This document shows positions 25,967-56,239 of a stretch of DNA of 64,000 bases, one piece after another. The DNA is taken from the NCBI GenBank assembly GCA_022414725.1, contig CM039462.1, forward strand, positions 60,950,595 through 61,014,594. Direction: 5' to 3'. This stretch comes from Microglena sp. YARC. Taxonomy: Eukaryota > Chlorophyta > Chlorophyceae > Chlamydomonadales > Chlamydomonadaceae. How positions within the stretch are numbered: position 1 is the stretch's first letter; every line of letters starts with the position of its first letter. Below the pieces are notes generated by a model that saw only the letters and a program-made list of their open reading frames with translations, searched no databases and was not told the origin of the DNA. Made by a program: the position numbers and the translations under genes.

Positions 25967-26038
<72 letters not shown>
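25966..26038. repeat. (CA)n microsatellite
   Basis: About 35 CA dinucleotides. Confidence 0.95.
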
Positions 26039-26042
<4 letters not shown>

Positions 26043-26049
26043 CACAACC

Positions 26050-27013: not shown

Positions 27014-30000
27014 ATGCGATCAACTAGCTGTGGCTCATTGGCCTTGGCCCTAACATTACACTTAGCTATCAGCCTGTCTTTCCCCAGCTTGGGCCAGGCG
27101 CAGCCAATTATCGGCGGCGGTAAGTTGATGTGTGTTCATATATTCTGGTGCACTTGGACTTCACTGCATATGAAAGTTACAGAGTTTTATTTATGATGGG
27201 TTCAAATAGCTGGGGCTCACTGGCCTTGGCCCTAACATTACACTTAGCTATCAGCCTGTCTTTCCCCAGCTTGGGCCGAGCGCAGCCAATTTTCGGCGGC
27301 GGTAAGATTTTTTCTTCTTCTTTTGTTTAATCGATCATTTTTTTCATTTTCCATTTTTTCTACTGTCCTTGCTTGTCCTTAACATTGCATTTAGTTATCA
27401 GCCTGTATTTTCCCAGCTGGGTCTGGGCGCAGCCAATTATCGGTTGCTGTAAGTCGCTTTGTTTGGTATATTACAATCGTAGGATTACATTTTCACTGTG
27501 GCATGAACTCAGGACCCCCATCGATAAAACGATTGGCTGGGGTTCAGTTCATCAGCACTTTTTCGTTCGAGCCCGTCCTGTTACGACTGGGCAAGTCCCT
27601 TAAGCCTATTCGGCCCACCCCTGGACTGTAACAACATACAACATATTCCTGTGCATGCGGATTTGGCTGGATGTGATAGCGGCTGTGTGTGGACGGATGC
27701 CAAACACACACACCACACGACACACACAACCGCCTAGCATGTTACATTCCAGCAACATACCTCCCACACAAACACCACAAACACGCACACACACATCCCA
27801 CATCACTCACCAACTCACTCACTCACTCACTCACTCACTCACTCACTCACTCACTCACTCACTCACTCACTCACTCACTCACTCACTCACTCACTCACTC
27901 ACTCACTCACTCACTCACTCACTCACTCACTCACTCACTCACTCACTCACTCACTCACTCACTCACTCACTCACTCACTCACTTCACTCACTCACTCACT
28001 CACTCACTCACTCACTCACTCACTCACTCACTCACTCACTCACTCACTCACTCACTCACTCACTCACTCACTCACTCACTCACTCACTCACTCACTCACT
28101 CACTCACTCACTCACTCACTCACTCACTCACTCACTCACTCACTCACTCACTCACTCACTCACTCACTCACTCACTCACTCACTCACTCACTCACTCACA
28201 CTCACTCACTCACTCACTCACTCACTCACTCACTCACTCACTCACTCACTCACTCACTCACTCACTCACTCAACTCACTCACTCACTCACTCACTCACTC
28301 ACTCACTCACTCACTCACTCACTCACTCACTCACTCACTCACTCACTCACTCACTCACTCACTCACTCACTCACTCACTCACTCACTCACTCACTCACTC
28401 ACTCACTCCACGTCACTCACTCACTCACTCACCTCACTCACTCACTCACTCACTCACTCACTCACTCACTCACTCACTCACTCACTCACTCACTCACTCA
28501 CCCACTCACCACCACTCACTCACTCCACCCACCCCACCCACCCACCCACCACCCACCCACCACACCCACCACCACCCACCCACCCACCCACCCCCCCACC
28601 CACCCACCCACCACCACCCACCCACCCACCCCACCCACCCACCACCACCCACCCACACCCACCCACCCACCCACCACCCACCCACCCACCCACCCACCCA
28701 CCACCCACCCACCCACCCACCCACCCACCCACTCCCACCCACCCACCCACCACCCACCCACCCCACCCACCACACCCACCCACCCACCCACCCACCCACC
28801 CACCCACCCACCCACCCACCCACCCACCCACCCAACCACCCGTCCACCCGTCCACCCACCCACCTGTCCACCCGTCCACCCACCCGTCCACCCACCCGTC
28901 CACCCACCCACCCACCCACCCACCCACCCCACACATTACCACCGCCACCGCCACTGCCCACCCACCTACCCACCCATGCACCCACCCACCCACCCACCCA
29001 CCCCACACATTACCACCGCCACGCGCCACTGCCCACCCACTACCCACCCATGCACCCACCCACCCACCCCATCCACCGCAGGCTTTATTGGAGATGAAAA
29101 TGCCCTTAAAGAGCGTATTGTCATCACCGGAAGGCTGATAGCTACTTCTGGGCATGATGGAAATATCTACGAAATGATATTGAGTACGTTAGTAATCCTA
29201 GCTTGTGTGTGTGTGTGTGTGTCAGTGTGGGGTTTGTGGGATTATGTGGGTGTGTGGGGTTGGGGTTGGGGGTTGGGGTGGGGTGTATTTGGTGATACTG
29301 ATATTGAGTTTTTTAGTAAGCTTGTGTGAGTCTGTGTGGGGTGTGTGGGTGTATGTGGGTGTGGGACTGTGCGTGTATGTGGGTGCAGGTGTATGTAGGG
29401 GTCAGCTATGTTATATAATATGATTGAATACATACAAATATATAACATTATATAATATTATATAGTATTATATAATAATAGTCGGATGAGCCGTCTCAAC
29501 AGAAATTCGAATTTATTTGAAAAACTAATATTATTGTGACACGTAATAATATAATAATATCAGTTAATATTAGTTTTTCAAACACTCATATTAGTTACCG
29601 TTCCCTAGGTGTATGTGGTGTGTGGGGTTGGGGGTGGTGGGTGTGGGTGGGTGGGTGTGGGGTTGGGGTTGGGGGTGGTGGGTGTGGGTGGGTGGGTGGG
29701 TGGGTGGGTGTGATGGTGTTGGTGTGGTGGGGGGGGGGGGGCTTTCATTGACAGTAGCACTGTTCTCATCCTTTTTCTGATTTCCTCCTACAGATGATGT
29801 CATTCAAACAACTGTCATGCTCCCCTCAAGGCCCTACATTGTTGGCAGTAGTGACCGAGCTTCTATTGGAAGCACCATCACTATGACCTGCCAAGACCTT
29901 GGCCAAGGCTCTGTTACCAGGGTGCGTCCACAAAACATAATGTATTGTAATTAAACATCAATTAACTGCATTAAAAAATCATTGAATATCATCAAACATC

Positions 30001-33000
30001 ATTGAACATGATTAAACATCAGTTAACATAATTTAAGTTGTCTTAAGATGATCATAATCTGTTATCATTTCAGCCTCTCAGCATTTTTCATTTCAGCATT
30101 TCTGCAATTTAAGCATTTTCAGCATCTTTAGCAACACCACAAATTTGTGCAAAGACTTCAGTAGTTATTGGTAATGCTCTAAATACAACTTAATTATACA
30201 ACTGAATCATGTTTCTAATTGCACCTACCTGACAGCTCAAGATCTGTGTTGGCATGCCTCTAAACACACTGAGCTCATAAACCTGAATCATGTCCCAACT
30301 TGCACCTTCGTAACAGATCAAGATCTGTGTTGGCATGCCTCTCAACACACTGAACTCATAAACCTGAATCATGTCCCAACTGGCACCTTCGTAACAGATC
30401 AAGATCTGTGTTGGCATGCCTCTCAACACACTGAACTCATAAACCTGAATCATGTCCGAACTGGCACCTTCCTAACAGATCAAGATCTGTGTTGGCATGC
30501 CTCTAAACACACTGAACTCATAAACCTGAATCATGTCCATACTGGCACCTTCCTAACAGATCAAAATCTGTGTTGGCATGCCTCTAAACACACTGAACTC
30601 ATAAACCTGAATTATGTCCCAATGACACCTACCAAAGAGATCAAGATCTGTGTTGGCATGCCTCGAAACACTTACCTCTATGTTTAGAAGGACCTAGTAA
30701 GTCCCGCAATCAGGGGGGGGCTGCTGGTGAGCCTTTTACAGAGTCATGCTTTTGTCAAGCTGTACCCTGCCTCGTGCTCAATTGTCATCTGTTATGTTTG
30801 CAGTTGTGTTTGCAAGTTGTGTTTGCTTGTTTGCTTGTTTGCTCCTTTTTCCTTAACTCCTTCGCTTAGTTTCTTGCTTTTGCCCCGAATCGTGTTCCAA
30901 ATGGCACCTACCGTAAAGATCAAGATCTGTGTTGGCATGCCTCTAAACACACTGAACTCATAGACCTGATTCATGTCCCAACTTGCACCTACCTAACAGA
31001 TCAAGATCTGCATTGGCATGGGAGACGCCGTGACCCTGGGACAAGCCAAGACATTGCCTGAGTTGCTTGGGGGCACTGGAGAGAGCACTGTGAATGTAAT
31101 GATCACGTAAGTGTGGAGTAGGTGTCAGTTTAATGTGATGATCATGTAAGTGTGAATGAGATGATCACAGAAGTGAGAATAAGTAAGTGTGAATGAGATT
31201 GCATGTAAGCGTGAATGTGTAAGTGTGAATGTGATGATCACGTTAGTGTGGGGTGGGTGTCAGTGTAAGCTTATTGAGGGTTGGTGGAAGGTCGACAGGG
31301 CTAGGTCTACGGGTGGAAGAGGTGTAGGGTGGGTGCCAGGATGACAGCAAGTGCAGCAGATGACTAGGACAGGTATTATCAATGGCAGCACCTTAGGAAC
31401 CACTCATCCTTGTTAGGTTCATGTTGCACTGCCCAACATGTATTGTTCTGCCTATTGTTAATGCATGTTACAGTTACAGTCCAGGGGGTAGCCGATTAGG
31501 CTCGAGGGACTTGCCCAACCTCAAATAATCAAGACGGGTCTGTTATATAAGGAGGGGATGGATTAATGTGAAGTGTGTACATATGTTACAGTCCAGGGGG
31601 TATCCGATTAGGCTACAAGAAATTGTCCAACCTCAAACAATCAAGACAATTATGTTCTATACAGAGGGGATGGGTTAACAAGCACTGGGAGATCTGACTC
31701 CCATCAAATTGCAAGGGCGCTGATGCTGGTCTTGATGCTGATGCTGATGCTGGTACTGGTGCTGGTGCTGGTGCTGGCACTAATGCTGGTGCTGATGCTG
31801 ATGCTGATGCTGACGCTGATGCTGGTGATGATACTGATGCTGATGCTGATGCTGGTGATGATACTGATGCTGATGCTGATGCTGCTGCTGGTACTGATGC
31901 TGGTGCTGATACTGATGCTGATGCTGATGCCGGTGCTGATGCGGATGCTGATGCTGGTGCTGATGCTGATGCTGATGGTGGTGATGATGCTGGTGATGGT
32001 GTTGGTGCTGGTGTTGATGCTGATGCTGATGCCGATGGTGGTGCTGATGCTGGTGCTGATGCTGATGCTGGTGTTGATGCTGGTGCTGGTGCTGCTGATG
32101 ATGCTGATGCTGAAGCTGGTGCTGATGCTGGCACTGATGCTGGTGCTGAAGCTGATGCTGATGGTGGAAATATCCTGAACCAGGGTATCAATGATTTATA
32201 TGGCTGCCTGTGGATATGGCTCCCTAAACTCTACACCCTAAACTCGACACCCTACACCCTAACCCCCGAATGTGGTAGGGACGGGTGAGGATGGGTGGTC
32301 AGGACTGGTGTGGGCTCAATGCACCTAAGGAAATGCTATTTGAAGCTCGCAATGGCCTCCCTCTCACCCTTTTGTCCTCTATTATACAGTGCACTGCATC
32401 AAACTGCAGCTGAGCACACTTCATAACTCATCACAACTGCCTCCCTCTCACCCTTTTCCCTCCGTACTCCAGGACGCTTGTGGTGGTTGTAAAAAGAACA
32501 TGCAGCGGCATGTTGCAGCCCATCTCTCTTGTGCTGAAAGGAACTACATTACTCAGACTGCCGCTCATCACACTTCATAACTCATCACAATTGCCTCCCT
32601 CTCACCCCTTTCCCTTCATACTCCAGGACGCTCGTCGTGGTCGTGAAAACAACATGCAACGGCATGTCGCAGCCCATCTCTCTTGCCGCTGCTAGGAGCT
32701 ACATCACAAAGACTGCGACCCAGATAAAAATTTGTTCTTATGACAAGATGCAGTTCGACATGGCCAAAATGGATGTAAGTGTGTATGTAAAATAAATGAT
32801 AAGCATACTGAATGTTGTCAATGGATTTTTATATGTTTACAAATCCACACAAATAGGATTTTGGAAAGTATTGTTGAATAGCAAAAATAAAAGTTGAGTT
32901 GCTAAAGATCTGTTATGGTGACAAGATGCAGTTCATCATGGACAAGATGGATGTAAGTGTGTATGTAAAATAAATAAAAAAGCATACTGAATGTTGTCAA

Positions 33001-36000
33001 TGGATTTTTAATTTACAAATCTATAGAATTAGGATTTGGGAAAACATTGTTGAATAGCAAAAATAAAAGTTGAGTTGCTAAAGATCTAATATGATGACAA
33101 GATGCAGTTCATCATGGACAGGATGGATGTAAGTTTGCATACAATCGGGATACAATAAATAAATACAACGTCTTCTTCAACTGAAGGTCGCCAGAGGCTT
33201 TTTAATACATTTACAAATCTACGAAAATAAAATCCTAAAATGAGATAATCTTATAGTGAAGGTCATGAATGGCTTTTTAATACATTTACGAATCCACAGA
33301 ATTACGGTTTAGGAAAACACGTTAGAATAGCACAAATTCAAGTTGAGTTGCTAAAGATCTGTTATGATGACAAGATGCAGGTCATCATGGACAAAATGGA
33401 TGTAAGTTTGCATAAATTAAATAAAGAAATAAAACATCTTCTTCAACTGAAGGTCGCCAAAGGATTTTTATACATTTACGAATCCACAAAATTATGATTT
33501 ATGAAAACAAGGTAGAATAGCAAAAAACAAGTTGAGTTGATGAAGATATGCTCTTATGACGAGATGCATTACAACATGGACAAAATGGATGTTAGGCTCT
33601 AATTGCAGGTTGTTGTCGAATGCGATGGTAGCTTGTCCAGTCGAGGTGGTAGACCGTTCTCTGCCCGCGTACAACGAGTTCCCTTAATACCACGCCCCAC
33701 CAGGCGTTATCATTACTTTTTTAGGCTTTCTCAAACTTTTTGAAAGGATTTTCACCCCAATTTGAGAAACCGGTGGGACCTGAGGTTGTTCACACATTGG
33801 TGTGTCCCCCGCCCCCCCCCCCCCCCCCCCCCCGTGTCCCCCGCCCCCCCCCCGCAGTTGTGTCCCCCGCCCCCCACCCCTCGTGTCCCCCGTCCCCCCC
33901 CGTCCCCCCCCCGTGTCCCCCGCCCCCCACCCCTCGGTCCCCCGTCCCCCCCCCCCCCCCCCCCCCCCCCCGTGTCCCGCCCCCGCCCCCCCAGTTGTGT
34001 CCCCCGCCCCCACCCCTCGTGTCCCCCGTCCCCGCCCCCCCGTGTCAGTTGTGTCCCCCCACACCCGGGCACGCACCCCCAGCCCTACCCCAACCCCCAC
34101 TGCTCCACCCCTACTCCTAACCCACACCCCTCCCCACACCCCACACCCCAGACCTGCCCCCACCCGCACCCCAGGAAGTGCGACACCGTACCCTTGTATT
34201 GTATTTCTGGTATTATGTGATCATGTACAGATGTGTACCTGACATGCACCTGATATGCAAATTGATTAATTAAAGATATTGTATTCAGGGTAATTCAAAG
34301 TGCGCGCTTTTGAGCGCTGACTTTTTGACCCCCTCTGCGCTTTTAGCGCAGTTTTTTGCAACCCCTTGTGGGCGCTGCAAACAATTTTTACGCTTTTTGC
34401 ACTATAAAGCGCAGTTGTTTTGCTCTCAAGTGCGCTAAAGCGCTGGCCAATTTGAATTTGAATTTGAATTTGGCCACTTGAAGTACCCTGATTGTATTAT
34501 GGAAATTCTGTAGTTCTGTAGTTCTGCAGTTCTGTAGTTCTGTAGTTCTTTAGTTCTGTAGTTCACGCTGATAATCTAAGCATTGTGAATTGCTGCATTT
34601 GTATCAGGGGGTGGGTGGGTCAGAATGAGGTGTGGGCTGAGCTGGGATGGGGGAGGAGTGGGAGGAGGGGCACTGATTGTATTATGGAAAGGTGTATTTT
34701 TTCATGGACAAATGGATGTAAGTGTGGATGTGTTATAGACTCACTCCAACCAACTCTAACTGACCAACTCAACTCAACTAACCCTAACTAAGTCAGGTTA
34801 TGGAGGTTACCACGGACTTGCTGACTCGGCATGATGCAAATGGCATCCTTACCAATGTGTCATAGATTCACTCCAACTAACTTTGCCTAACTAAATCAGG
34901 TTATGGAGGTTACCATGAACCGCTGCGATTTGCTAACAAAGTGTGATGCCAGTGGCATCTCCGATGAAGCCTGGGACCTGGTGGTAGCTGCCAAGGGCAC
35001 AGGAGTAACCCAACGGCAGTTCAGCCATTGGCAGATCATAGTCCCGCAGGGCTCTGGCTGTGACAGAAGTTGGGCTGCCTTGGCTCAAATCGGTGAGTTT
35101 CAATACACTGCATTGTTGTAGAGTTTGCGGCCTGGGATCTGGTGGTAGCTGACCGGGGCTCAGGTGTAACCCGAGGGCAGTTAGGCTGTTGGCAGATTAT
35201 AGTCCCACAGGGCTCCTGCTGTGACAGGAGCTGGGCAGCCTTGGTTCTGGATGGTGAGTTTCAATACACTGCATTGTCGTAGAGTTTGCGGCCTGGGATC
35301 TGGTGGTAGCTGACAGGGGAGGGGCATGGGATCTGGTGGTAGCTGACAGGGAAGGCACACAGCTGTAACCCGAGGGCAGTTCAGCCTTTGGCATATTATT
35401 GTCCAGCAAGACTCCAGCTGTGAGAGGAGTTGACTGCCTTGGTTCAGGTTGTAGAGTTTCAGTACATTACATTGTCCTAATCACACTCAAGTACAAGTAA
35501 GTATTTTGTTGTTGCTGTTGTTGTTACAGTCCAGAGGTAGGCCAAGTAGGCTATATGGACTTGCCCAACCTTGAAAGGAGGGGTTCAAACAAAAAGTACT
35601 GATGAACTGAGTCCCAAACAATAATTTTACCAACAGGGGCCCTGAGTTCATGCTACAGTGATCATTAATTCTACGATTATGATATGTAATATCTCTTGCG
35701 AAAAAACATCAGCCAATCACAAGAACAGCCAACCACCACCTGGCACACCCCTTACCAACGCCCGCGAGTACCAACCACCGCCCCATCTTGTGTCCTTTCC
35801 ACCACAGGGACCTCCTTCGACCCATCCCTCGGAAAACCAACCAACACCTGGCACACCACTGGGAGCTTTGGTATCAGCCAGATTTGAACCACCACATCTT
35901 GTCCCTTCCCACCACAGGGACCTCCTTCAACCGATCTCTTGGAAAAACCAACCACCACCTGCTACACTCCTTACCGATCCCTGGTCATGTAAACCGACTC

Positions 36001-39000
36001 CCCATCTTGTTCCTTCCCACCACATGAACCTCTTTGGACCCATCCCTCGGAAAACCAACCACCACCTGCTTCACTCCTTACCGATCCCTGGGTATGCCAA
36101 CCACCACCCCATCATATTCTTTCCCATCCGCAGGAACCTCCTTCGACGAATCCCTCGGAAAACCAACCACCACCTGTTAGCTTTGGTATCATTAGGATTT
36201 CACCCCCCCCCCCCCATCACGTTCCTTCCCACCACAGGAACCTCCTTCGACCCATTCCTGGGAAAACCAACCTCCACCTGGCACACCCCTGGTAGCTTTG
36301 GTATCGGAAGGATTTCAACCACCACATCTTGTCCCTTCCCACCACAGGAACCTCCTTTGACCGATCTCTTGGAAAGCCAACCACCACTTGCTATACTACT
36401 GGAAACTTTAGAATTAGTCGGATTTCAACCATGCCATCTTGTCCCTTCCCACCACAGGAACCTCCTTCGACCGATCTCTTAGAAAGCCAACCACCACTTG
36501 GTATACTGCTGGAGACTTTGGAATCCGTCGGGTTTCAACAGTCATGCAAGAGATCCTCCACAACTTCGGCATCTACCATGGATCTGTGGATGCTGTGAAG
36601 GATGACTTGTGTCAGTGCCATGTGACTGACTCTTGCGGGAGGGACGACTGTCACAAGGAGTATGGTGATTACTCAACTTGTATGGTGAGTTGCTTTTTTG
36701 ATTTTTACAAAAAGGATTATCGCCTCAAACATTATTATCTCTCAAGGGGGGGGCAACTTCAAACCAAAATGACCCCATCATCAAACCTTGTAGATCTCAT
36801 TGAGAGGATGAAGAATCCGGTCTTACTTCTTAATTTGGCCCAGTTATCTCTTCCTTTTTTTGTGTGAAAGGTATTTCACCCCAGGAGGTGGGTCTCCTGG
36901 CACAAACCAGTGACACCGAGGATTCAGTTCGAATGGCATTGCCACTCGTACAAGAGAGTAGGGGTACTGTCATGCATGACTGACACTTGCTGGAGGTACG
37001 ACTGCCATGAGGAGTATGGCGATTATTCTACCACCACACCACCACCACCACCACCACCCCACCACCACCACCCCAAATCCAGTCCCTCCACCCAACTCCA
37101 CCCCAACTCCAATCCCCTCCAACCACCACCCCCACCTCCAACAGGGCTACAGAGATGCTTGCCTTCAGCTGTGGAGAATTACCGTCTGGAATATAGTGAT
37201 TATTCGACCACCACCACTCCCACCCCAACTCCAATCCCCTCCACCCACCCCCACCTCAACTCCAATCCCTCCACCCACCCCCACCTCAACTCCAATCCCC
37301 TCCACCCACCCACCTCAACTCCAACCCCTCCACCAACTCCACCCCACCCCAACTCCCACCCCCACCTCTAACAGGGCTATGGAGATTCTTGCCCTTCTGC
37401 TGTGGAGAATTACGTCTGGAATATGGCTATTATTCTACCACCACCACCACCACCACCACACCACCACACCACCACCCCAACTCCAATCCCCTCCACCCAC
37501 CCCCCACCCCAACTCCCACCCCCACCTCTAACAGGGCTACGGAGATGCTTGCCCTTCTGCTGTGGAGAATTACCGTCTGGAGTGGGCTAAGGCTATTGAC
37601 ACCCTGACAGGGAGCAATCTCCCAGAAGGGATAATCAAGAACTTACAGGTTTATGCTACCTATATCGGCCCTAGGACCCTTGTGCGGGTGAAGCCTGACT
37701 GGATCGTCAACCGAGGCATGAATCTGTACTTCAGCATGAGGATGAACGTAAGTGTGACATGAACCTGTACTTTTGTATGAGGATGCATGTAAGTGTGACA
37801 TGGAGCTGTACGTCCGTGTGACTGGATCGTCAACCGTGACTTGAATTTGTACTTCAGCATGAGGATGCATGTAGGTGTGACGTGGACCTGTACTTCAGTA
37901 TGGCTGGACTGATAAGTGTGACATGAACTTGTACTTCAGCATGAGGATGCACGTAAGTGTGACATGAACCTGTACTTCTGTATGACTGGATCGTCAACCG
38001 CAGCATGAATCTGTACTTCAATTTGAGGATGAACGGAAGTGTGACATGGACGTGTACTTCTGTATGAAGGATCGTCAACCGTGACATGAACCTGAACTTC
38101 AGAATGATGATGAATGTCTTGGCAGCAGCAGCAGCAGCAGCAGCAGGCATAGCAGCCTTGTCAGCCTTGGCCTTGGCAGCCTCAGCCTTGGCAGCCTTGG
38201 CAGTCTCAGGCTTGGCAGCCTTGGCAGTCTCAGGCTTGGCAGCCTTGGCAGTCTCAGGCTTGGCAGCCTTGGCAGCCTCAGCCTTGGCAGCCTTGGCAGT
38301 CTCAGGCTTGGCAGCCTTGGCAGCCTTGGCAGTCTCAGGCTTGGCAGCCAAGTTGGTTCCTTGCCAGCTAAGGGGCTTGCCCATCCTGCTATTTGGTCTC
38401 CTCAGTATTCTGTGTGACTGATCTCCTAAATATTTTGCTGTATGCTTTCTTCAATATTCTACAGTATGGTATATTCAATTTGCGTTGTATGGTCTCCTCA
38501 ATATTCTGTTGTATGGTCTATTCAATTCCAATACATGTCCACTGTTCTGTGGTCCCTTAAGCCACCACGTGATCAAACAATTAAAAACGAATAAAGAAAG
38601 AAAGAAAGAAAGAAAGAAGAAAAAAAACGAACACAGAAATAAATGTAATGCCTTTTGTCATGGCGTGAGGATAGGAGACCAGCCTGTTCGCTTCTCTAAG
38701 GCCTGCCTTAAATATAATGGTCGTTGCAGATTTGGGGCCTGCCTTAATATAACGGTCACTACAGAATTGGGGCCTGCCTTAAATATAACGGTCACTAAAG
38801 ATTTGGGGCCTGCCGGCATTGTAAATGTGCATGGTGTGTGTGTGTGTGGTGGTGGTGGTGTGTGTGGGGGGGGGGGATGGAAAGGATGTGCATAACTGGT
38901 AAGAGAATATAATAGCTGGGTGCCGCAGGGGTGAAGAAAAAGCTGCCAAAAGCCCACCAAATGTGCTTTGCAAGGGTGCTTACCCTTTTCTGCAAACTTG

Positions 39001-42000
39001 CGGCACCCCCCTTGCCCATAATGTACCCTTTCAAGCCAACTAAAAGAGTGCCGAAGATCGGCATGAAGCTAGGAGAGTCTGCCACAATCGATTGCGCACC
39101 GGGAAGCCCCCCGCCCCTTTTGGTACCCTTGCAGCAGCCCCCCCTTGGCCATAATGTACCCTTTCAAGCAAAATAAAAGGGTGTCAAAAATCGGCATGAA
39201 GCTAAGAGAGTCTGCCACAATCGATTGCGCACCGGGAAACCCTCCCCTTGCCCATAATGTACCCTTCCAAGCGAAATAAAAGAGTGACCAAGATTTCCCA
39301 AAATGGCAGTGTGTACTCCTGACCATCATCAATGCTCAGCGTATGTTTGCGGTACAATTGACCATGATCAATGCTCACTGTAATTTTGTGCGGTACAACT
39401 GACCATGATCAATGCTCACTGTATGTTTGTGCGATACAACTGACCATGATCAATGCTCGCTGTATGTGTGTGCGGTACAACTGACCATGATCAATGCTCG
39501 CTGTATGTTTGTGCGGTACAACTGACCATGATCAATGCTCGCTGTATGTTTGTGCGGTACAACTGACCATGATCAATGCTCACTGTATGTTTGTGCAGTA
39601 CCTCTGGCCATGATCAATGCTCACTGTATGGGTGTGCAGTACAACTGATCATCACCAATGCCCACTGTGTGTTTGCACAGAAAGGAGGGGATGTGGACCT
39701 GCAAAGTCAATTTGTCGGCAAGGTTTCTGTCCATTCCATCAGCAGCAGCGTAGATGAGCGAGCAAGCAATGAAAATGGAGATATGTGAGTTTTCTGCTTT
39801 ATGATCTGATAATTTGTATACTGTCCATTACATTAGCAGTCACGTTGATGCGCAAGCAAGCAAGGAAAACAGAGATATGTGAGTTTTCTGCATTTGTGAT
39901 TTGGTCAATTTATACTGTCCATTACATTAGCAGCTGCATAGATGAGCCAGTGATTATTCTTTCAAATCTGAAAGTGGGTTTCTTCTAGCTTTATGGTTTC
40001 AGGGCTCCTCCAGGGACAGCGTTTTAGTGCTTTCTGTAGCTTTTTATAGCTTTCTGTAGCTTTTTAGTGCAATTGAGGGCAAAAATTAAACAATTTTTTT
40101 TTCTTTTTTAGGGCGATATTTTTGCTAAAACGGGGTCAAAACTAGCGATCGCTATATATAGCGGAAATAATAATCCCTGAGATGAGCAAGCAAGCAATGA
40201 AAATAGGAGGGTTCCTTGGCGGGTCCCCTGGAGGTCGGCCCTGGGGTTTGTACGTCAGACTGGGTCAGTCGGACTGTTAGGTTGTGGTAACGGGGGCGGT
40301 GTGCTATTGTACGAGCAGAGTACAAGGGTACCTGAAGAGAAGCAGGGAAGTTTGGTATGGTAGGTAATGTCGTTATACATTGCAAACTTTTGACTGGCAA
40401 TTTCCGGTGGTTTCGCCAAACCTACCATGCTCCTACCTACGTATTGTGGTTTTGACTGGTGGTTTCGACGAATTCCGGCGATTTCAATAACCGTATTGTG
40501 GTGTTGATGCATAGGTCTGGCTGCCTTTGGGCCGACCAACGGGGATATGAGAGTTTTCTACTCTATGATTCGATCAGTTTTATACTGCCCATTCCATCAG
40601 CAGTCATGTAGATGAGCGAGCAAGCAATGAAAACGGGGATATGTGAGTTTCTGCTTAATGATTCGATCAATTTTATACTGTCCATTCCATAACCAGTCGT
40701 GTAGATGAGTGAGCAAGCAATGATAACGGAGATATGTGAGCTTTATGCTCTATAATTTGATCAGTTTTATACTGTCTGTTCCAATAGCAGTCACGTAGAT
40801 GAGATTAAAATCTAATCATTTTATACTGTCTGTTCCTAGTTCTGGTATCATTTTATACTGTCTGTTCCTAGTTCCGGTATCATTTTATACTGTCTGTTCC
40901 TAGTTCCGGTATCATTTTATACTGTCTGTTCCTAGTTCCGGTATCATTTTATACTGTCTGTTCCTAGTTCCGGTATCATTTTATACTGTCTGTTCCTAGT
41001 TCCGGTATCATTTTATACTGTCTGTTCCTAGTTCCGGTATCATTCTGGTGCTGTTGCAGTGTCAAGTTCACATGAATGTATCATACTCCGATTTGTAACA
41101 AGACATATTTCATATTTACGTTAACAGTCTTTTATCTATATTTACATTTAGATTTATATATCTATACTAGTTGGGTAGCCTGTGTGGCCGTTGGCCCCCC
41201 TACCCGCCCCCCCCCCGCCTGCCCCCCCTCGAGCTCCCTCTCTCCTGCCCCCTCCCCCCTCCCTCCATCCATGCCCCATCCCTTTGTCCTCCTTCCTACC
41301 CCTCCTCTTTTCTGTCTCCTCTCCATTATATACCCTCTCAACCCACCATCCCTCCCCATCTGCACTACCATAAACACACCAAGGTACTTCAAATGGCCAA
41401 ATTGGCCAGCGCTTTAGCGCACTTGAAAACAAAAAAACTGCGCTTTGTAGTGCAAAAAGCGCAAAAATTGCTTGCAGCGCCCACAAGGGGTTGCAAAAAA
41501 CTGCGCTTAAAGCGCAGAGGGGGTCAAAAAGTCAGCGCTCAAAAGCGCAAAAGCGTGCGCTTTGAATTAACCTGAAACACACATTCTCCCCTGCCTGTTC
41601 CCCCGAACGTTCGCGATACCCCCACCCCCCTGAGAAAACCGGACCTGTGCATTGAATTTGAAATTGCTGCGGAATCATGCAAATTTCGAAATTGAAATCA
41701 ATGCGGTGTCATGTAAATTTGAAATTGAAATTGCTGCGATAGCATGACAAATTAAAATTGAAATTGCCGTGGCATCATGAAAATTTGAAATTCAAATTGC
41801 CGTGGCATCATGACAAATTGAAATTCAAATTGCCGTGGCATCATGAAAAATTGAAATTGAAATTGCCGTGGCATCATGAAAAATTGAAATTGAAATTGCC
41901 GTGGCATCATGAAAATTTGAAATTGAAATTGCCGTGGCATCATGAAAAATTGAAATTAAAATTGCCGTGGCATCATGAAAAATTGAAATTGAAATTGCCG

Positions 42001-42407
42001 TGGCATCATGAAAAATTGAAATTAAAATTGCCGTGGCATCATGAAAATTTGAAATTGAAATTTCCGTGGCATCATGAAAAATTGAAATTGAAATTGCTGC
42101 GGTATCATGAAGGGCTTAAGGAGCAAAAGTGTGTTGATATGTGAGATGAGCAATGCAAGTGCGAGTGGCCATGACGATCTGAAGAAAGTCGAGTAACGTG
42201 CAACAACTGCCTGCAAACCATGATAAATGGGATGCGATGGCATGGCAACAGTGCGCATGCGTGAGATGAATGGTGGCAACACTCGTAGGAAAAAAGGCAG
42301 TACAGATCATTAGAACTTTCCATACTGCCAATTGTACCAGCAAATTGTCGACACCTGGGCCTCCGCCGCATTGAAGCGTTGGCCCGGAATCCTACATTTA
42401 TAAAGAT

Positions 42408-42503
<96 letters not shown>

Positions 42504-45500
42504 GTAGATAGATAGATATTAGTACCTGTCTAAAACAATGACCTCACATGGCAAACGATGACCTCACACGAAACAATGACCTCGCTTTCTTTGCTGCAGC
42601 CATTTGCTCTGATTGGTTTATCTTGTGTTCCAGGTTCCCCAGAGAGCAAGGGCGGTGCACATATTTGGCTGAATAGTCAGGCAGGGGAGCTTCCTAGAAG
42701 CTGCTGCTTGTAGCTGAAACGAAAAACACCGCTCTATCCGTGTTTTTGACTCCGCTAATTTCTTTTTCTTTGCTGCAGCCATTTGCTCCGAGTGGTCGGC
42801 CCCAACTCCGTCTATGACTTCTCCAAGATGAAGCTGCGGCTGATTGTGGGCGCCCTTAACACCAACGACGACTCCATCATAATGGGCTTCTGTAGATACG
42901 CCAGCGATCCCAGCAAGGAGTGCAAGGAGGGTACCACCACTGCTCCTAACACACCGACGGCACCGAAGCCGCCAAAATCCCCTCCCCCCTCTCCCCGTTC
43001 CCCAGCCCCCAATCCTCCCTCCCCCGCAGACCTCCTCCCGTTGGATCTGTCTCTACAGATGGAAGGTGCGGTGCCAGTCACGGCACCATTTGCAGCAATA
43101 AATCTGGCAACAAGATCTGCTGCTCAGAGTATGGCTACTGTGGGTACGGAAACCCCTCGGACCCCCTATACTGTGGGGTGGGCTGCCAAGCAATGTATGG
43201 CTACTGCTTGAGCAACGATGCCCGCCCTCCCCCCGTCCGAAGCCCCCCACCGCCCACTTTTCAGGGGTGCACACCCATGCAGTCCTTCAAAGCTTATGAG
43301 GGAAATGACGTTGTGGGCAACACCATCTGGTGTGCAAAGGACCAGACCATTGAATCTCTCGATGACTCTTGCTCTGATGTAGGTCATTTTGCCCATGTAC
43401 CACCACCTCACTGCCCCAGCCATCCACCCACATAGACACACCTCACACTCCATTTAACTCACCACCTGCACCCACACAGACACACCTCACACTTCATTTG
43501 ACTCACCACCTGCGCCCACATAGACACACCTCACACTCCATTTAACTCACCACCTGCAACCACACCCACAACCGGCACCTGTCCAAGTGTTTCCCCAACA
43601 TGCAAGCCCATTACTTCCTTTTCTTGCAGCCTCTTACCCTGAATCCTTGAGCTAATCCTGCCTCATCCCCGTCCCCCGTCCCCCTCCCCTATCCGACTAC
43701 CTCCATCTACACGCAAGCCTATTACTTCCTTTTCCGGCAGCCTGTTCCCCGGAACCCTTGAGCTAATCCTGCTTCCCCCCCCCCCATCCCCCGTCCCCCC
43801 CCACTTGTCCCCCATGTCCCCCGTCTCTTGTCCCCCGTCCCCCACACCTGCTTAACTGCTTCCCATCCACGCAAGCCCATTAGTTCCTTTTCCGGCAGCC
43901 TGTTACCCTGAACCCTTGAGCTAATCCTGCTTCCCCCCACCCCCCATCCCCCGTCCCCCCCCCCACTTGTCCCCCGTCCCCCGTCTCTTGTCCCCCGTCC
44001 CCCACACCTGCTTAACTGCTTCCCCATCCACGCAAGCCCATTAGTTCCTTTTCCGGCAGCCTGTTACCCTGAACCCTTGAGCTAATCCTGCTTCCCCCCA
44101 CCCCCATCCCCCGTCCCCCCCCACTTGTCCCCATGTCCCCCGTCTCTTGTCCCCCGTCCCCCACACCTGCTTAACTGCTTCCCCATCCACGCAAGCCCAT
44201 TAGTTCCTTTTCCGGCAGCCTGTTACCCTGAACCCTTGAGCTAATCCTGCTTCCCCCCACCCCCCATCCCCCGTCCCCCTCCACTTGTCCCCCCCCGTCC
44301 CCCGTCTCTTGTCCCCCATCCCCCACACCTGCTTAACTGCTTCCCCATCCACGCAAGCCCATTAGTTCCTTTTCCGGCGGCCTGTTACCCTGAACCCTTG
44401 AGCTAATCCTGCTTCCCCCACCCCCCATCCCCCGTCCCCCCCACTTGTCCCCCGTCCCCGTCTCTTGTCCCCGTCCCCCACACCTGCCTAACTGCTTCCC
44501 CATCCACGCAAGCCCATTAGTTCCTTTTACGGCAGCCTGTTACCCTGAACCCGCGAGCTAATGCCCCCCCCCCCCCCCACACACCATCCCCCCCCGTCCC
44601 ATCCCCATCCCGTCCCCCGCCCCCATCCCTCATCCCGTCCCCGCACTTGTCCAACTGCTTCCCCCAGCACGCAAGCCCATTAGTTCCTTTTCCGGAAGCC
44701 TGTTACCCTGAACCCTTGAGCTAATCCTACCCCCCCACCCCCACCCCACCCACCCCGTCCCGTCCCCATCCCCGTCCCCCGCCCCCATCCCCCATCCCCC
44801 GTCCCCACACCTGTCCAACTGCTTCCCCCAGCACGCAAGCCCATTAGTTCTTTTCCGGCAGCCTGTTACCCTGAACCCTTGAGCTAATCCTACCCCACAC
44901 ACCCCCACCCTACCCCGTCCCCGTCCCCATCCCCGTCCCCCGCCCCATCCCCATCCCCCGTCCCCGCACCTGTCCAACTGCTTCCCCCAGCACGCAAGCC
45001 CATTAGTTCCTTTTCCGGCAGCCTGTTACCCTGAACCTTGAGCTAATCCTACCCCCCCACCCCCACCCCCCCGTCCCCATTCCCATCCCGTCCCCCGCCC
45101 CATCCCATCCCCATCCCCCGCACCTGTCCAACTGCTTCCCCCTACACGCAAGCCCATTCATTCCTCTTCTGGCAGCCTGTTACCCTCAACCCTTGAGCTA
45201 ATCCTGCTTCCCCCCCTGTCCCCTCCCCGACCCCCCCCCCCCCCCTCCTCCTCCCCTGTCCCTTGTCCCCCGTCCCCCGCACCTGTCCAACTGCTTCCCC
45301 TACACGCAAGCCCATTCATTCCTCGTCTGGCAGCCTGGTACCTGAACCCTTGAGCTAATCCTGCTTCCCCCTGTCCCCTCCCGGACCCCCCCCTCCCCCC
45401 TCCCCATCCCCGTCCCTTGTCCCCCATCCCCCCAAACTGGTTCCCCGTACACGCAAGCCCATTCATTCCTTTCCTGGTAGCCTGTTGCCCTGGAACCAAA

Positions 45501-46366
45501 GCTCATCCTGCCCACCCACACACCCACACATATACACACACACCACAATGCAGCTGTCCAACTGCGTTGCCTACACCTAAGTCCATTGATTCCTTCCCTG
45601 GTAGCCTGTTACCCAGGACCCTACAGATAATCCTGTATTCACACACACACACCACCGCAGCTGTCCAACTGCTTTGCCTACACCCAAATCCATGCATTCC
45701 TTTTTGTTAGCCTGGTAGCCTGGACCCCACAGATAATCCTGCCTTCTCCTCCCCCCGCAGCTGACCAATTGCTTTGCCTATACTCTGAACAAGAATTGAC
45801 ACCCACACCCACACCAACACCCACTCACACACAATCACACACTCACACACACTCCAAACACCGCAGCTGACCTACTGCTTTGCCTATACTCTGAACAAGA
45901 ATGGATCCCCCCCTCCCTCCCCCCCCCCCCCCCACACACACACACCCCACACACCGCAGCTGTCCAGCTGCTTTGCCTATACTCTGAACAAGAATGGACC
46001 CCCCCCTCCCCCCCCCCACACACACACCACACACACACCGCAGCTGTCCAACTGCTTTGCCTATACTCTTAACAAGAATGGACCCCTCCCCCTCCCCCCC
46101 ACACACACACTCACACACACACCCCACACACCGCAGCTGTCCAAACTGCTTTGCCTATACTCTTAACAATAATGGACCCCTCCCCTCCCCCCCCCACACA
46201 CACACACACTCACACACACACCACACACCGCAGCTGTTCAACTGCTTTGCCTATACTCTGAACAGAATGGACCCCCCCCCCCCCCCCCCCAACACACACA
46301 CACGCACTCCACACATCGCAGCTGTCCAACTGCTTTGCCTATACTCTGAAACAAGAATGGACCCCC

Positions 46367-46423
<57 letters not shown>

Positions 46424-47516
46424 CGCAGCTGTCCAACTGCTTTGGCCTATACTCTTAACAAGAATGGACCCTCTCCCTCCCCCCCCACACACACACACTC
46501 ACACACACACCCCACACACCGCAGCTGTCCAACTGCTTTGCCTATACTCTTAACAATAATGGACCCCTCCCCTCCCCCCCCCCCCCCCCACACACACACA
46601 CTCACACACACACACCGCATCTGTTCAACTGCTTTGCCTATACTCTGAACAAGAATGGACCCCCCCCCAACACACACACACGCACCACACATCGCAGTGT
46701 CCAACTGCTTTGCCTATACTCTGAACAAGAATGGACCCCCCCCCCCCCCCCCCAACACACACACACCACACATCGCAGCTGTCCAACTGCTTTGCCTATA
46801 CTCTGAACAAGAATGGAGAGGGTTGCTTGAAGTCCAGGAGCTCACCGAGGACGACAAATTCAGACATTTTGTGCTTATACGCATTTCAGCCTGCCCCCGC
46901 CCCACCACCGCCTGTGGGTGCCAAGAGCTGCCCCTTTGCCGACCGCTTTGAAGTGTCTTACAACATTGACAACAACGCCGAGGGACAGTGCCGCACGCTC
47001 CAAACCGTTGAGCAGATGGTGAAGTGGTGTGACTCACTAATCTGGTGCTGGGCCTTCAGTCTTAACATCCTCGGCACGGGCTGTGTCAAGAAAGCAGCGT
47101 ATAACACATTCGCAAACAAAGACGTGCAGTGCTTCTACCGCTACACAGGTGAATCCTCTCTCATCCCCCCCCCGCCTGCGGCAGACGCCGTCACTTGCCC
47201 CGAGGTGGATCGTTTCACGCCCTTGGGGCAGCTCGAGAATAACTATAACATCAAGTGTCGGGAAAATTATGACGTCATCGCCTCTAGGGACTGGTGTGAC
47301 ATGCTCCCGGACTGCTATGCCTTCGCGACCTACACTGGAGGCAAGGGATGTGTGAAGTCCTCCAGTTACAACACATTCCCCTTTGCTGCGAGCGAGTGTT
47401 TCTACAGGTACACCGGCGAACTGGTGGACGGTGGTGACTCCTATCCTCCAAGTTACGAAAAACCTCCAAGTTACGAATATCCTCCAAGTTACGATTATCC
47501 TCCTTACTACTACTAA
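27014..47516 (+). CDS. Gametolysin-like M11 metalloprotease with chitin-binding and PAN-like domains (12 exons)
   Basis: Exons: 27014-27119, 29082-29183, 29794-29921, 31000-31106, 32627-32774, 34900-35092, 36458-36684, 37535-37747, 39681-39784, 42779-42930, 43059-43378, 46779-47516. All introns are GT-AG, every phase agrees, and the total is 2538 bp (845 aa plus stop). Order: signal peptide (1-29, AQ cleavage), propeptide/early M11 region, catalytic motif [11 protein letters not shown] at residues 292-302, the M11 segment [27 protein letters not shown] and the CRY...C end. Then a hevein-like domain (about 494-540; CCSEYGYCG), a Pro linker, three PAN/Apple-like Cys repeats (about 556-632, 651-725, 738-815; GxGCVK...YNTF...CFYRYTGE) and a SYPPSYE-type tail. 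M11 enzymes lyse algal walls using a metal held by (H/Q)ExxHxxGxxH; Gln first is as in Volvox VMPs. Secreted, probably wall-bound through chitin/glycan binding. An alternative exon-10 donor at 42997 would keep a Pro-rich linker (867 aa). Confidence 0.88.
27193..27301 (+). CDS. Second copy of the signal-peptide exon (alternative first exon)
   Basis: It starts ATGATGGGTTCAAATAGC and encodes the same leader ([20 protein letters not shown]) ending PIFGGG at an identical phase-1 donor GGTAAGA. It could replace exon 1 of the M11 gene. A third, decayed copy (27366-27450; [13 protein letters not shown], donor TGTAAGTC) lacks an ATG. Confidence 0.65.
27465..27636 (-). mobile_element. tRNA-like SINE, full-length copy A
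   Basis: In minus orientation it begins TTGTTACAGTCCAGGGGTGG, has an A-box-like GGGCCGAATAGGC, a B-box-like GGGCTCGAACG about 45 bp on, then CTGATGAACTGA, CCTGAGTTCATGC and ends near CGATTGTAATATACC. It aligns over its whole length with 35521-35690. It lies in intron 1 of the M11 gene. Confidence 0.6.
27815..28520. repeat. (CACT)n microsatellite, about 0.7 kb
   Basis: Roughly 170 tetranucleotides with only a few interruptions, in intron 1. Period 4 keeps frames open as THSL repeats; not coding. Confidence 0.97.
28521..29070. repeat. (CCCA)n degenerate repeat to exon 2 acceptor
   Basis: CCCA/CCACC repeats; the last part is duplicated (28926-28960 and 29007-29035, ACACATTACCACCGCCAC) and leads directly to the exon 2 acceptor CCACCGCAG. 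Confidence 0.95.
29190..29793. repeat. Intron 2 of M11 gene: GT/GGGT-rich tracts
   Basis: GTGTGGGT-type repeats flank a TATA-rich centre (29400-29540). A partial copy of the exon 2 donor end (GATATTGAGTTTTTTAGTAA) recurs at 29297-29318. Confidence 0.75.
30190..30999. repeat. 81-bp array carrying exon 4 acceptor and exon start
   Basis: Seven copies of AACAGATCAAGATCTGTGTT then GGCATGCCTCTAAACACACT precede the true exon 4, which starts CAG-ATCAAGATCTGCATTGGC. Starts are near 30235, 30317, 30398, 30479, 30560, 30641 and 30916, so most units are 81 bp. Most keep the AG acceptor and encode IKICVGMP then a stop. Confidence 0.88.
31462..31690 (+). repeat. Two SINE-head fragments in tandem (about 120 bp)
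   Basis: GTTACAGTCCAGGGGGTA, GGACTTGCCCAACCTCAA and GAGGGGATGG occur twice, matching the first half of the SINE at 35521. Confidence 0.65.
31715..32166. repeat. (GATGCTGGTGCT)n hexamer-type microsatellite
   Basis: Long GATGCT/GGTGCT tract in intron 4. It encodes Leu/Met or Ala/Ser runs in different frames; not coding. Confidence 0.95.
32390..32626. repeat. Partial copy of exon 5 with its acceptor
   Basis: CTCCAG followed by GACGCTTGTGGTGGTTGTAA (from 32472) copies the start of exon 5 (CTCCAG-GACGCTCGTCGTGG, 32627) for about 90 bp, without a donor. The unit is about 155 bp. Confidence 0.82.
32890..33595. repeat. Array of exon 5 end plus donor
   Basis: Four copies of the exon 5 3' end (ATCTGTTATGGTGACAAGAT, GACAAAATGGAT then GTAAGT) at about 32907, 33086, 33355 and 33541; the first three keep a GTAAGT donor, the last reads GTTAGG. 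They encode [16 protein letters not shown] further fragment (CATGGACAAATGGATGTAAG) is at 34700. Confidence 0.85.
33600..33725 (-). mobile_element. GTGGTATTAAGGGA retroposon fragment, copy 2
   Basis: In minus orientation: AAGTAATGATAACGCCTGGT, GGGGCGTGGTATTAAGGGAA, then GAGAACGGTCTACCACC. It matches copies at 23575-23690 (-) and 48235-48345 (+). Confidence 0.55.
33805..34075. repeat. GTGTCCCCCGCCCC minisatellite
   Basis: C-rich array with GTGTCCCCCG spaced by C runs, in intron 5. High potential for G-quadruplex on the minus strand. Confidence 0.92.
34286..34490 (+). mobile_element. hAT-type MITE, copy 1 (205 bp, 8-bp TSD)
   Basis: Ends are CAGGGTAATTCAAAG and (inverted) CAGGGTACTTCAAG. The flanks are an exact 8-bp direct repeat ATTGTATT (34278-34285 and 34491-34498). 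CAGGG termini with 8-bp target duplications are diagnostic of hAT-superfamily insertions. No coding capacity. The interior has GCGCTTTT/AAAGCGC repeats. Confidence 0.88.
34500..34566. repeat. GTAGTTCT 9-bp minisatellite
   Basis: About seven units of TCTGTAGTTC. Confidence 0.9.
34796..34899. repeat. Copy of exon 6 acceptor and start
   Basis: GTCAG followed by GTTATGGAGGTTACCACGGA (34798) repeats the exon 6 start (TCAG-GTTATGGAGGTTACCATGA, 34900), including GATGCNANTGGCATC. Confidence 0.8.
35110..35455. repeat. Copies of exon 6 end
   Basis: Two or three partial copies of the last 100 bp of exon 6 (GCCTGGGATCTGGTGGTAGC, GGCAGATTATAGTCCCACAG, GTGACAGGAGCTGGGCAGCC); the first keeps GGTGAGTTTCAATACACTGC as at the true donor. 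Confidence 0.82.
35521..35690 (+). mobile_element. tRNA-like SINE, full-length copy B
   Basis: Starts TTGTTACAGTCCAGAGGTAG, A-box-like GTAGGCCAAGTAGGC, B-box-like GGGGTTCAAAC (35579), then CTGATGAACTGAGTCCCAAA, CCTGAGTTCATGCTACAGTG and CTACGATTATGATATG. It matches 27465-27636 (inverted). Head fragments are scattered at 31462, 31583, 47606, 47843, 49853, 51440, 52090, 52848, 52998 and 62852. Confidence 0.62.
35720..36457. repeat. Array of exon 7 acceptor plus exon start (about 110 bp units)
   Basis: Seven units each carry TTCCCACCACAGGAACCTCC, then TTCGACCNATCNCTNGGAAA and CCAACCACCACCTG; the last is the true exon 7 at 36458. Most keep the acceptor AG and a frame like [17 protein letters not shown]. 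One unit has CACATGAACC (acceptor lost). Confidence 0.9.
36925..37530. repeat. Chimaeric copies of exon 7 end and exon 8 start with (CCA)n
   Basis: At 36975-37033 the end of exon 7 is copied (TGACACTTGCTGG, GAGTATGGCGATTATTCTAC). At 37142-37210 and 37371-37440 the start of exon 8 (ACAG-GGCTAC/TGGAGAT, GCTGTGGAGAATTACCGTCT) is fused directly to the end of exon 7 (GAATATAGTGATTATTC). (CCA)n tracts separate them. Confidence 0.85.
37755..38110. repeat. Array of exon 8 end plus donor
   Basis: Repeated ACTGGATCGTCAACCG, ATGAATCTGTACTTCAGCAT and GAGGATGCACGTAAGTGTGA in about five units, copying the last 70 bp of exon 8 and its GTAAGT donor. Confidence 0.88.
38118..38352. repeat. TTGGCAGCC/TTGGCAGTCTCAGGC minisatellite
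   Basis: (CAG)n followed by 9/24-bp units, Ala-rich in translation; within intron 8, not coding. Confidence 0.93.
38690..39300. repeat. Two short tandem arrays in intron 8
   Basis: About 40-bp units with GCCTGCCTTAAATATAANGG (38700-38815), and about 110-bp units with ATCGGCATGAAGCTAAGAGA, GTCTGCCACAATCGATTGCG and CATAATGTACCCTTTCAAGC (38990-39290). Confidence 0.82.
39305..39680. repeat. 41-bp array ending at exon 9 acceptor
   Basis: Nine units of CAACTGACCATGATCAATGC then TCACTGTATGTTTGTGCGGT; the last unit reads TCATCACCAATGCCCACTGT and GTTTGCACAG, which is the exon 9 acceptor. Confidence 0.9.
39785..40800. repeat. Array of exon 9 end plus donor
   Basis: Six or so copies of TAGATGAGCGAGCAAGCAAT, GAAAANGGAGATATGTGAGT and TTATACTGTCCATTNCATNA follow the true donor at 39785. 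One copy is split by an insertion (40204-40537). Confidence 0.88.
40204..40537 (-). mobile_element. GGTCGGCCC-ended repeat element, copy 3 (about 334 bp)
   Basis: Its ends TAGGAGGGTTCCTTGGCGGG and CTTTGGGCCGACC split an exon 9 donor repeat: the sister unit at 40621-40640 reads GCAATGAAAACGGGGATATG without interruption. That comparison fixes the ends to within a few bases. Copies 1 and 2 are at 6022-6700 and 7085-8285. Non-coding. Confidence 0.72.
40801..41050. repeat. 32-bp tandem repeat, 7-8 units
   Basis: Units: ATCATTTTATACTGTCTGTT then CCTAGTTCCGGT, nearly perfect. Confidence 0.95.
41140..41205 (-). mobile_element. Retroposon end: CTAGTnnGGTAGCCTGTGTGGCC (copy 1)
   Basis: TATATATCTATACTAGT is followed by TGGGTAGCCTGTGTGGCCG. 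Copies at 53832 and 61118 have (TATG)n before the same junction, so in minus orientation this is a retroposon with a microsatellite tail. Confidence 0.5.
41380..41574 (-). mobile_element. hAT-type MITE, copy 2 (195 bp, 8-bp TSD)
   Basis: Inverted relative to 34286-34490; ends CAAGGTACTTCAAA and (inverted) CAGGTTAATTCAAAG. It is flanked by an exact AAACACAC direct repeat (41372-41379 and 41575-41582). Confidence 0.87.
41640..42118. repeat. 33-bp repeat (CCGTGGCATCATGAAAAATTG...), about 14 units
   Basis: Units of CCGTGGCATCATGAAAAATT then GAAATTGAAATTG. Period 33 keeps a [11 protein letters not shown] frame open; not a gene. Confidence 0.93.
42120..42370 (+). repeat. Dispersed repeat with NNGTGCGCATGCGTGA block
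   Basis: GTGCGCATGCGTGAGATGAA, TGGTGGCAACACTCGTAGG and upstream sequence resemble 61805-61960, which is also near a tetranucleotide tract. Confidence 0.5.
42405..42518. repeat. (GATA)n microsatellite
   Basis: About 28 tetranucleotides. Confidence 0.97.
42584..42778. repeat. Duplicated exon 10 acceptor around a dispersed repeat
   Basis: TTTCTTTGCTGCAGCCATTT occurs at about 42587 and again at the true exon 10 acceptor (42778). Between them is a copy of the GGGGAGCTNCCTAGAAGCTG dispersed repeat (42670-42716). Confidence 0.75.
43384..43565. repeat. About 60-bp repeat ACACACCTCACACTNCATTT
   Basis: Three units with AACTCACCACCTGCNCCCAC in intron 11. Confidence 0.85.
43570..45540. repeat. About 155-160-bp array, 13 units, in intron 11
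   Basis: Units contain CACACCTGCTTAACTGCTTC, ACGCAAGCCCATTAGTTCCT, GGCAGCCTGTTACCCTGAAC and a variable C-rich tract. The part CCTGTCCAACTGCTTCCCC resembles the exon 12 start (CTGTCCAACTGCTTTGCC), so this array seems to be an older derivative of the same splice-site region. Confidence 0.9.
45541..46778. repeat. Array of exon 12 acceptor plus exon start, 12-14 copies
   Basis: Each unit (80-110 bp) has CACCGCAGCTGTCCAACTGC, TTTGCCTATACTCTGAACAA, GAATGGACC, a C run and a (CA)n run. Starts near 45660, 45760, 45864, 45958, 46041, 46134, 46228, 46318, 46426, 46519, 46618 and 46695; the last, at 46779, is the real exon. Most keep CAG and the frame [13 protein letters not shown]. Confidence 0.93.
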
Positions 47517-54286: not shown

Positions 54287-54606
54287 TTGGACGTTTCGTC
54301 AGACGACGCGGACATGCGAAGACTTTTGGAAATTGCAAACGAACGTCTGCGCAGTTTCAGACTCAGCTTGAAAGATCGGAATTGCGCGAGAGCAAAGGGG
54401 CTTACGTGTAGCTTCCTCTTCGCGCATAGATACCTGGTTGGGCGTGCAAGCTGTTTCCCGAAAGGGCCTTCGCTCGGTCAACTATGTCACGCACTCGCTA
54501 CAGCTCAGCGCGAAAATAACCTTATCGTTGTAGGGTGTGAGTGGTGTGGGGTGGGACTGACTAAGGAGCTCGGTGCTCAACTTCGTACCGCAGGGTTTTT
54601 CGATGG
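54287..54606 (+). CDS. Possible exon running into palindrome (hypothetical)
   Basis: A frame encodes DVSSDDADMRRLLEIANERL, a Cys/Phe-rich middle and LTKELGAQLRTAGFF, ending at a good donor (GATG-GTAAGTAA, 54607). An acceptor-like GCGCAG lies at about 54280. The last 50 bases are the outer end of the 5.6-kb palindrome, so the same exon end occurs inverted at 60135-60184. No family recognised. Confidence 0.3.
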
Positions 54607-55751: not shown

Positions 55752-55762
55752 TGTTCAGGCCT

Positions 55763-55866: not shown

Positions 55867-55889
55867 TCATTTTTATATCATTAATCTCA

Positions 55890-56160: not shown

Positions 56161-56239
56161 AACTCTCGCGCCAGACTATAAAAGCAGAAGCTGTCATTAT
56201 CAACTCAGGGGGTTGATCTACACTACAGGCTATTCGCTA

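Follow-up and report, generated by a model that had tools for sequence, protein, structure and literature searches.

Tandem repeats that run across exon–intron boundaries have been described in lancelets as "mirages", in the Adh3, TnC, globin and PGBD5 genes, where they reportedly do not disturb splicing (PMC3087553, PMC3902484). In the parts of the literature that our search covered, with subscription journals thinly represented, the term appears for lancelets only, and multi-copy border arrays from organisms other than animals were not encountered. The gene described here encodes a peptidase of the M11 family and lies within a 64-kb stretch of genomic DNA, analysed over its whole length (the window). 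Its arrays share with mirages a repeat unit that spans the exon–intron boundary, as seen at 14 of the 22 splice borders and in 13 of the 17 arrays with longer units, and AG or GT survives in many of the copies (48 were scored, with 89 of 96 site bases retained).

The M11 gene and the copies of its splice borders

The assignment to the family comes from a profile match to PF05548 (Peptidase M11, gametolysin) at 116.3 bits, against a curated cut-off of 21. Reading frame and GT/AG sites define 12 exons on the + strand between positions 27014 and 47515, from E0 (27014-27119) to E11 (46779-47515), and the 2537 nt obtained by joining them form an open frame with no internal stop, the joined sequence breaking off one base short of the complete stop codon. 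When compared with the gene by tblastn, the EukProt model P0001 matches E0, E2 to E9 and E11 at 95-100%, lacks E1 and E10 and treats as coding sequence two copies of exons, at 35118-35255 and 36237-36302, the first of which would need an intron of ~25 nt. E1 was placed by frame and, by eye, by its likeness to the paralogue P0002; E10 was placed by frame and by a chitin-binding match below threshold (18.5 bits, cut-off 27.8). The paralogues P0002 and P0003 were used as protein sequences only, and no relatives of the gene were found in the viral and prokaryote contigs. Judged from the DNA, the splice sites attached to the exons are probably the ones used. Within the last exon, an 18-bp tandem repeat (47442-47503) runs in frame and encodes repeated PPSYE-like units. 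Upstream of the gene, an array of ~200-bp units (26008-26983) ends ~30 bp before the E0 start codon, and introns 4 and 8 hold the two halves of an inverted pair (34304-34454 and 41398-41548; 151 nt, 95% complementary) that is probably an interspersed element.

To detect border copies, each of the 22 splice borders was represented by a 60-nt probe with the border in its middle. The probe was aligned with the 2.5 kb flanking the border on both sides and with 20 distant stretches, and a local match covering at least 6 nt on both sides of the border was counted as a crossing copy. Such copies were found locally at 14 borders (a, acceptor; d, donor), namely E0d, E1d, E3a, E3d, E4a, E4d, E5a, E5d, E6a, E7a, E7d, E8d, E9a and E11a, with scores of 33-110 against 20-33 for the best distant control of the same 14 probes; the weakest of them, E1d, scored 33 against 21 in the distant control. 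These scores bear out the claim of an earlier note on this DNA that borders are tandemly copied across the gene together with part of the exon, and the differing unit lengths on which it had remarked were recovered as well (81, 110 and 154 bp). The same search gave no crossing copy within 2.5 kb of the other eight borders (E1a, E2a, E2d, E6d, E8a, E9d, E10a and E10d), three of which have partial matches: an intron-side simple repeat at E1a, the exon side only at E6d and the intron side only at E8a. In total, 48 border-crossing copies were counted; their identity to the functional site is 79-100%, the differences are scattered, and unit lengths vary. Acceptor arrays lie upstream of the functional acceptor and donor arrays downstream of the functional donor, and units in the border arrays measure ~75-180 bp. 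In the probe test, point sampling, array count, random placement and retention analysis, the E0 donor was set one base early (27118, not 27119), with two E0 copies off by one.

The arrays, all on the + strand, can be followed through the gene. The signal-peptide exon E0 (27014-27119) has copies at 27196-27306 and 27372-27472, with units of ~182 and 147 bp, E1 (29082-29183) has a single weak donor copy (29299-29359), and E2 (29794-29921) has no border copy. Seven copies with 21 nt of exon, in units of 81 bp, make up the acceptor array of E3 (31000-31106; array and exon 30177-31106), and a copy of the E3 donor (31089-31268) was found by both the probe test and self-comparison. E4 (32627-32774) is flanked on both sides: its acceptor array (with the exon, 32399-32774) has a unit of 154 bp that includes ~90 nt of exon and is joined at the shared 5-mer ACTGC, and its donor array (32723-33600) has a unit of ~176 bp and a further copy at 34682-34731. 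For E5 (34900-35092), self-comparison identified an acceptor copy (34772-34812; with the exon, 34728-35092), and the donor array (34969-35479) repeats a 161-bp unit with up to 124 nt of exon. The acceptor array of E6 (36458-36684; array and exon 35723-36684) has a unit of ~110 bp and six border-crossing copies. The array of intron 6, followed by E7 (37535-37747; together 36968-37747), has a unit that combines an E6 tail ending before the donor, a complete intron of 96-166 nt and an E7 head, and the E7 donor array (37696-38117) has units of 41/82 bp. Ahead of E8 (39681-39784), an array of 41-bp units (38997-39676; with the exon, 38997-39784) ends 4 bp before the acceptor (39680) and includes no exon; the E8 donor array (39727-40803) has a unit of ~94 bp. 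The probe test detected one acceptor copy of 32 nt (42586-42617) for E9 (42779-42930; together 42586-42930). Intron 9 (42931-43058) is array-free and uninflated at 128 bp, and E10 (43059-43378) has no border copy. The last array precedes E11 (46779-47515; array and exon 43561-47515), with units of ~159 and then ~96 bp and 12 border-crossing copies.

The earlier note had reported the same structure at two further loci. In the Kazal gene, the copy at 351-389 (acceptor plus 17 nt of exon) is real, but only one of the five borders examined has a crossing copy; at the locus called HDAC-like, a crude motif scan found no HDAC motif. The Kazal gene also contains an array of 47-bp units (920-1339) that ends 7 bases from a different acceptor, at 912/913, and includes no exon. 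Taken as a whole, the observation of border copies is partly confirmed.

Array counts and null models

Arrays were detected by self-comparison of the whole window. Before counting, matches shorter than 28 nt, with a score below 33, with an offset below 15 or above 3000 or with low 3-mer entropy were dropped, a filter that discards simple repeats, which sit mostly in introns; arrays from Tandem Repeats Finder with a period of at least 12 were added back if they did not overlap others, and one exon-internal array was set aside. Self-comparison yielded 35 arrays, 17 inside the gene and 18 outside. Border overlap tracks unit length: none of the 11 gene arrays with units below 60 bp (Tandem Repeats Finder; mostly simple sequence) contains a border, compared with 13 of the 17 at or above that length (P = 7e-5). 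With four longer-unit and all 11 short-unit arrays of the gene free of borders, and 18 more arrays outside it, the statement that all arrays are tied to exon borders does not hold.

Point sampling, which compares borders, intron positions and positions outside the gene by the share crossed by a local copy, gave 593/866 for intron positions (345/567 without low-complexity positions, i.e. 61-68%) and 579/1912 outside the gene (404/1650 without low-complexity positions). Borders, at 14/22, are therefore no richer in local copies than other intron positions, with the caveat that border arrays account for a large part of the intron sequence sampled. Outside the gene, arrays occur at 0.34-0.44 per kb (14 arrays in 40.7 kb after exclusions), two of the 18 arrays being excluded for offsets above 250 and five arrays in a palindrome being counted as three. 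At this rate, 0.8-1.1 border arrays are expected against the 13 observed (12-16 fold), which implies either that the gene was a hot spot when it was compact or that junctions were favoured. The palindrome (54556-60185) is near-perfect and 5.6 kb long, with arm pieces 91-99% complementary, a centre near 57375 and nested tandem repeats; each arm has a C2H2 zinc-finger-like ORF (55143-55718 on the - strand and 58987-59625 on the + strand; family assigned by eye), and the structure is a fold-back element or an assembly artefact. A second long inverted-repeat pair (14964-16326 and 21842-23208; 98-99% complementary) encloses tandem arrays.

Whether 13 of 17 exceeds chance depends on the null and on the ancestral intron length that is assumed. 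Random placement of 17 spans in today's gene gave a mean of 6.8 with a border (P = 0.001), and when only splice-tolerated placements were allowed the mean fell to 2.9, with 13 reached in none of 3000 draws. The earlier note was thus right that random minisatellites in introns of today's length would hit borders less often, and the excess needs explaining. As the sole null, however, placement in today's introns was judged unfair, since the introns owe part of their present length to the arrays, and short-ancestor models were added. Placement in short ancestors gave expectations, out of 17, of 12.2 for introns of 200 bp (P of at least 13 = 0.45), 10.4 for 250 bp (P = 0.14), 9.2 for 300 bp (P = 0.047) and 7.5 for 400 bp (P = 0.003). 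With the intron remainder outside matched stretches and repeats taken as the ancestral length, 6.3 or 7.2 of 17 are expected (P of at least 13 = 0.0003 and 0.002), and a cruder remainder null, in which whole spans including gaps are removed and the remaining introns are too short, gave 9.4 or 6.5 of 17 (P = 0.036 and 0.0004).

A forward simulation in which each event forms its own array reached at most 6.7 of 17, even from introns of 60-120 bp (P = 0.002). The merging simulation combined unbiased duplication with a splicing filter and merged overlapping arrays, as is done in detection. It returned border fractions of 0.65-0.93 from introns of 60-300 bp, against 13/17 = 0.76 observed, 0.43-0.50 from introns of 200-500 bp and 0.21-0.24 from introns of 500-1000 bp; random duplication is therefore enough for the border fraction with short ancestral introns but not with long ones. 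The short-intron runs produced 6.4-13.7 longer-unit arrays against 17 observed and 3.3-7.0 short-unit arrays, 1.0-1.9 of them at a border, against 11 and 0 observed, and 14 borders were readily reached only with few copies added per event.

Ancestral intron length and the origin of the arrays

The sequence gives partial support for short ancestral introns. Intron 6 says so most directly: copies of the E6 tail and the E7 head alternate three times, enclosing 113, 166 and 96 nt, with the E7 head continuing directly into the E6 tail at a shared GGAGT, and it follows from the alternation that the duplicated unit held a whole short intron together with parts of both exons. Introns other than intron 6 may likewise have had short ancestors. 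Once matched stretches and tandem arrays are taken away, nine of the 11 introns retain 46-435 bp and the other two 668 and 1523 bp; these lengths include later insertions and decayed arrays and serve as upper bounds only provided that no sequence has disappeared. In GC content and repeat load the DNA would fit a large green-algal genome such as that of Cymbomonas tetramitiformis (51.4% GC, 68.3% interspersed repeats; PMC10675990), for whose conserved genes a mean intron of 297 bp is reported (PMC5741210), a figure that would apply here only on the guess that this alga is the source.

The reading that we prefer, holding it with about even confidence, is that tandem duplication without bias took place in once-short introns and that copies of the borders were tolerated by splicing, giving arrays of the mirage type. 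In the order of events that we infer, ordinary tandem duplication by slippage or repair, with units of ~75-180 bp, would have acted in and around introns that were then ~60-300 bp long, and a unit near or above the intron length would almost always include a splice border. Such border copies would be tolerated, and copies spanning the splice site could have survived because use of the donor or acceptor that is attached to the exon would still yield the old mRNA, the other copies becoming intron. The arrays would then have grown and decayed unconstrained, helping to lengthen the introns to an average of ~1.6 kb. The anatomy of the arrays, the open spliced frame, the whole short introns in the units of intron 6 and the lack of extra decoy retention are directly seen. 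Unbiased duplication is supported by the border fraction simulated from introns of 60-300 bp, the units of intron 6 and the array-free 128-bp intron 9, by the rise of border overlap with unit length, by the 18 arrays outside the gene and the in-frame 18-bp array inside an exon, and by decoy retention like that of the flanks, even private changes and the 5-mers shared, by eye, at two joins (ACTGC at E4 and GGAGT at E6/E7). Against it count that it requires a hot spot at this gene, that the remainder-length nulls and the simulation with each event as its own array stay below 13, the 668 and 1523 bp remaining in two of the 11 introns, the join of the E8 donor array, at which no shared bases were seen by eye, the array numbers of the merging simulation, which are off, and an excess of third-position differences among copies.

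It is possible, though we lean against it, that tandem duplication is locally more frequent at exon–intron borders because of the borders themselves or of spliced transcription at them; R-loops, replication trouble at the change of composition or repair near the border are among the conceivable causes. This would agree with 13 border arrays where ~1 is expected, while border-free arrays in the introns of the gene are no denser than arrays outside (0.22 against 0.34-0.44 per kb), with the excess of 13/17 over placement both in today's introns and in array-free intron remainders, and with the higher density of tandem repeats reported near intron–exon junctions in Chlamydomonas and Volvox (PMC3887541). 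The copied parts, however, end 9-124 nt within the exon and away from the splice site (the E0 copies comprise the whole exon) and extend ~5 to >60 nt into the intron; as the splice site lies inside the unit, breaks at that site are not indicated, and the spliceosome-linked breaks suggested in the earlier note are weakened. Moreover, arrays below 60 bp include no border (0/11), the unit of intron 6 held a whole short intron and needs no preference, and short ancestral introns would account for the border fraction. A higher duplication rate linked to junctions, as proposed earlier, or to this gene keeps in its favour the 13 border arrays against the ~1 predicted from the outside rate, but the observed border fraction is also reached from introns of 60-300 bp, a shortness that the sequence supports in part, when duplication is random and a splicing filter applies. 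We consider doubtful the wider proposition that tandem duplication in this genome favours exon–intron junctions, with introns growing outward from the splice sites as in lancelets, and that a junction-linked mutational process is present in distant eukaryotes and acts as a general motor of intron lengthening.

Selection could also have retained decoy sites, for instance for splicing regulation or for holding the spliceosome, and the 48 crossing copies, most of them with AG or GT, would be in line with this; we nevertheless rate it as very improbable, given that the site bases are kept like their flanks (89/96, 92.7%, against 511/568, 90.0%, and 420/464, 90.5%), that no gradient of identity with distance from the functional border was found in the six arrays with at least four crossing copies (P 0.54-1.0) and that 15 of 40 exon-derived copies contain a frame-shifting gap. 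The suggestion of such selection is weakened accordingly, and of the statement that copies keep AG or GT and the reading frame, the first part stands and the second fails for those 15. Budding of copies one by one from the functional border was rejected, the distance gradient that it predicts being absent from the six arrays. Alternative or tandem coding exons, with some of the copies serving as exons, are unlikely too: P0001 includes 35118-35255 and 36237-36302 as coding, and divergence among copies is highest at the third codon position (0.148 against 0.094 and 0.078; pairs not independent), an excess that would allow past coding use of some copies, but the paralogue P0002, compared by eye, lacks such extra segments, the first extra exon of P0001 implies the ~25-nt intron, and copy-private changes fall alike on the three codon positions (33/24/35, P = 0.36). 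At first, second and third codon positions, exon-derived copies depart from the exon by 9.8, 8.8 and 16.4%. We read these patterns as copying from an exon that underwent silent changes of its own, with unconstrained decay of the copies thereafter. Least credible is an assembly or read error. Arrays are hard to assemble, and the window also contains the near-perfect 5.6-kb palindrome, but the differences in the crossing copies (79-100% identical to the functional site) are scattered and unit lengths vary, and the separate gene model P0001 shows matching exons and includes two copies at 98-100%, though it may derive from the same assembly. Overall, the interpretation given in the earlier note is partly supported.

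Comparison with known systems

This one gene shows how copies of a gene's own borders can lengthen its introns, and it provides a countable test of intron growth, in which random duplication with a splicing filter is set against a process aimed at junctions. Gene finders may mistake border copies for exons, as EukProt P0001 does here.

As in the present gene, tandem repeats in Chlamydomonas and Volvox are densest in introns and toward the intron ends; the study concerned treats repeat density and motifs, and units containing a border were not met in the parts of it that were covered (PMC3887541). The RdRp case of potato (PMC4974935) likewise involves tandem duplication of a stretch with splice signals, but whereas a single duplication there copied intron–exon structure, existing introns were lengthened here. 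Variable internal tandem repeats of human segmental duplications also cover exon–intron boundaries (PMC2812944); their repeat number is reported to alter the exon or to make novel introns, whereas the exons of the M11 gene look unchanged. The closest likeness is to the lancelet mirages, in which tandem units (reported as 10-72, 60, 108 and 150-160 bp) span the splice site and part of the exon at donors and acceptors, with many copies retaining AG or GT and those of lancelet BflGb6 being 81-100% alike. In lancelets, RT-PCR suggests undisturbed splicing, while the arrays of the M11 gene are known from DNA, with a spliced frame that is open through 12 exons. Copy number that is unstable between haplotypes is a further mark of mirages; the M11 arrays were read from a single assembly. 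Among the animal genes in the accounts covered, mirages affect one or two borders each, compared with 14 of the 22 borders of one M11 peptidase gene; the structure is already known from lancelets, and it is unusual here for its density in one gene.
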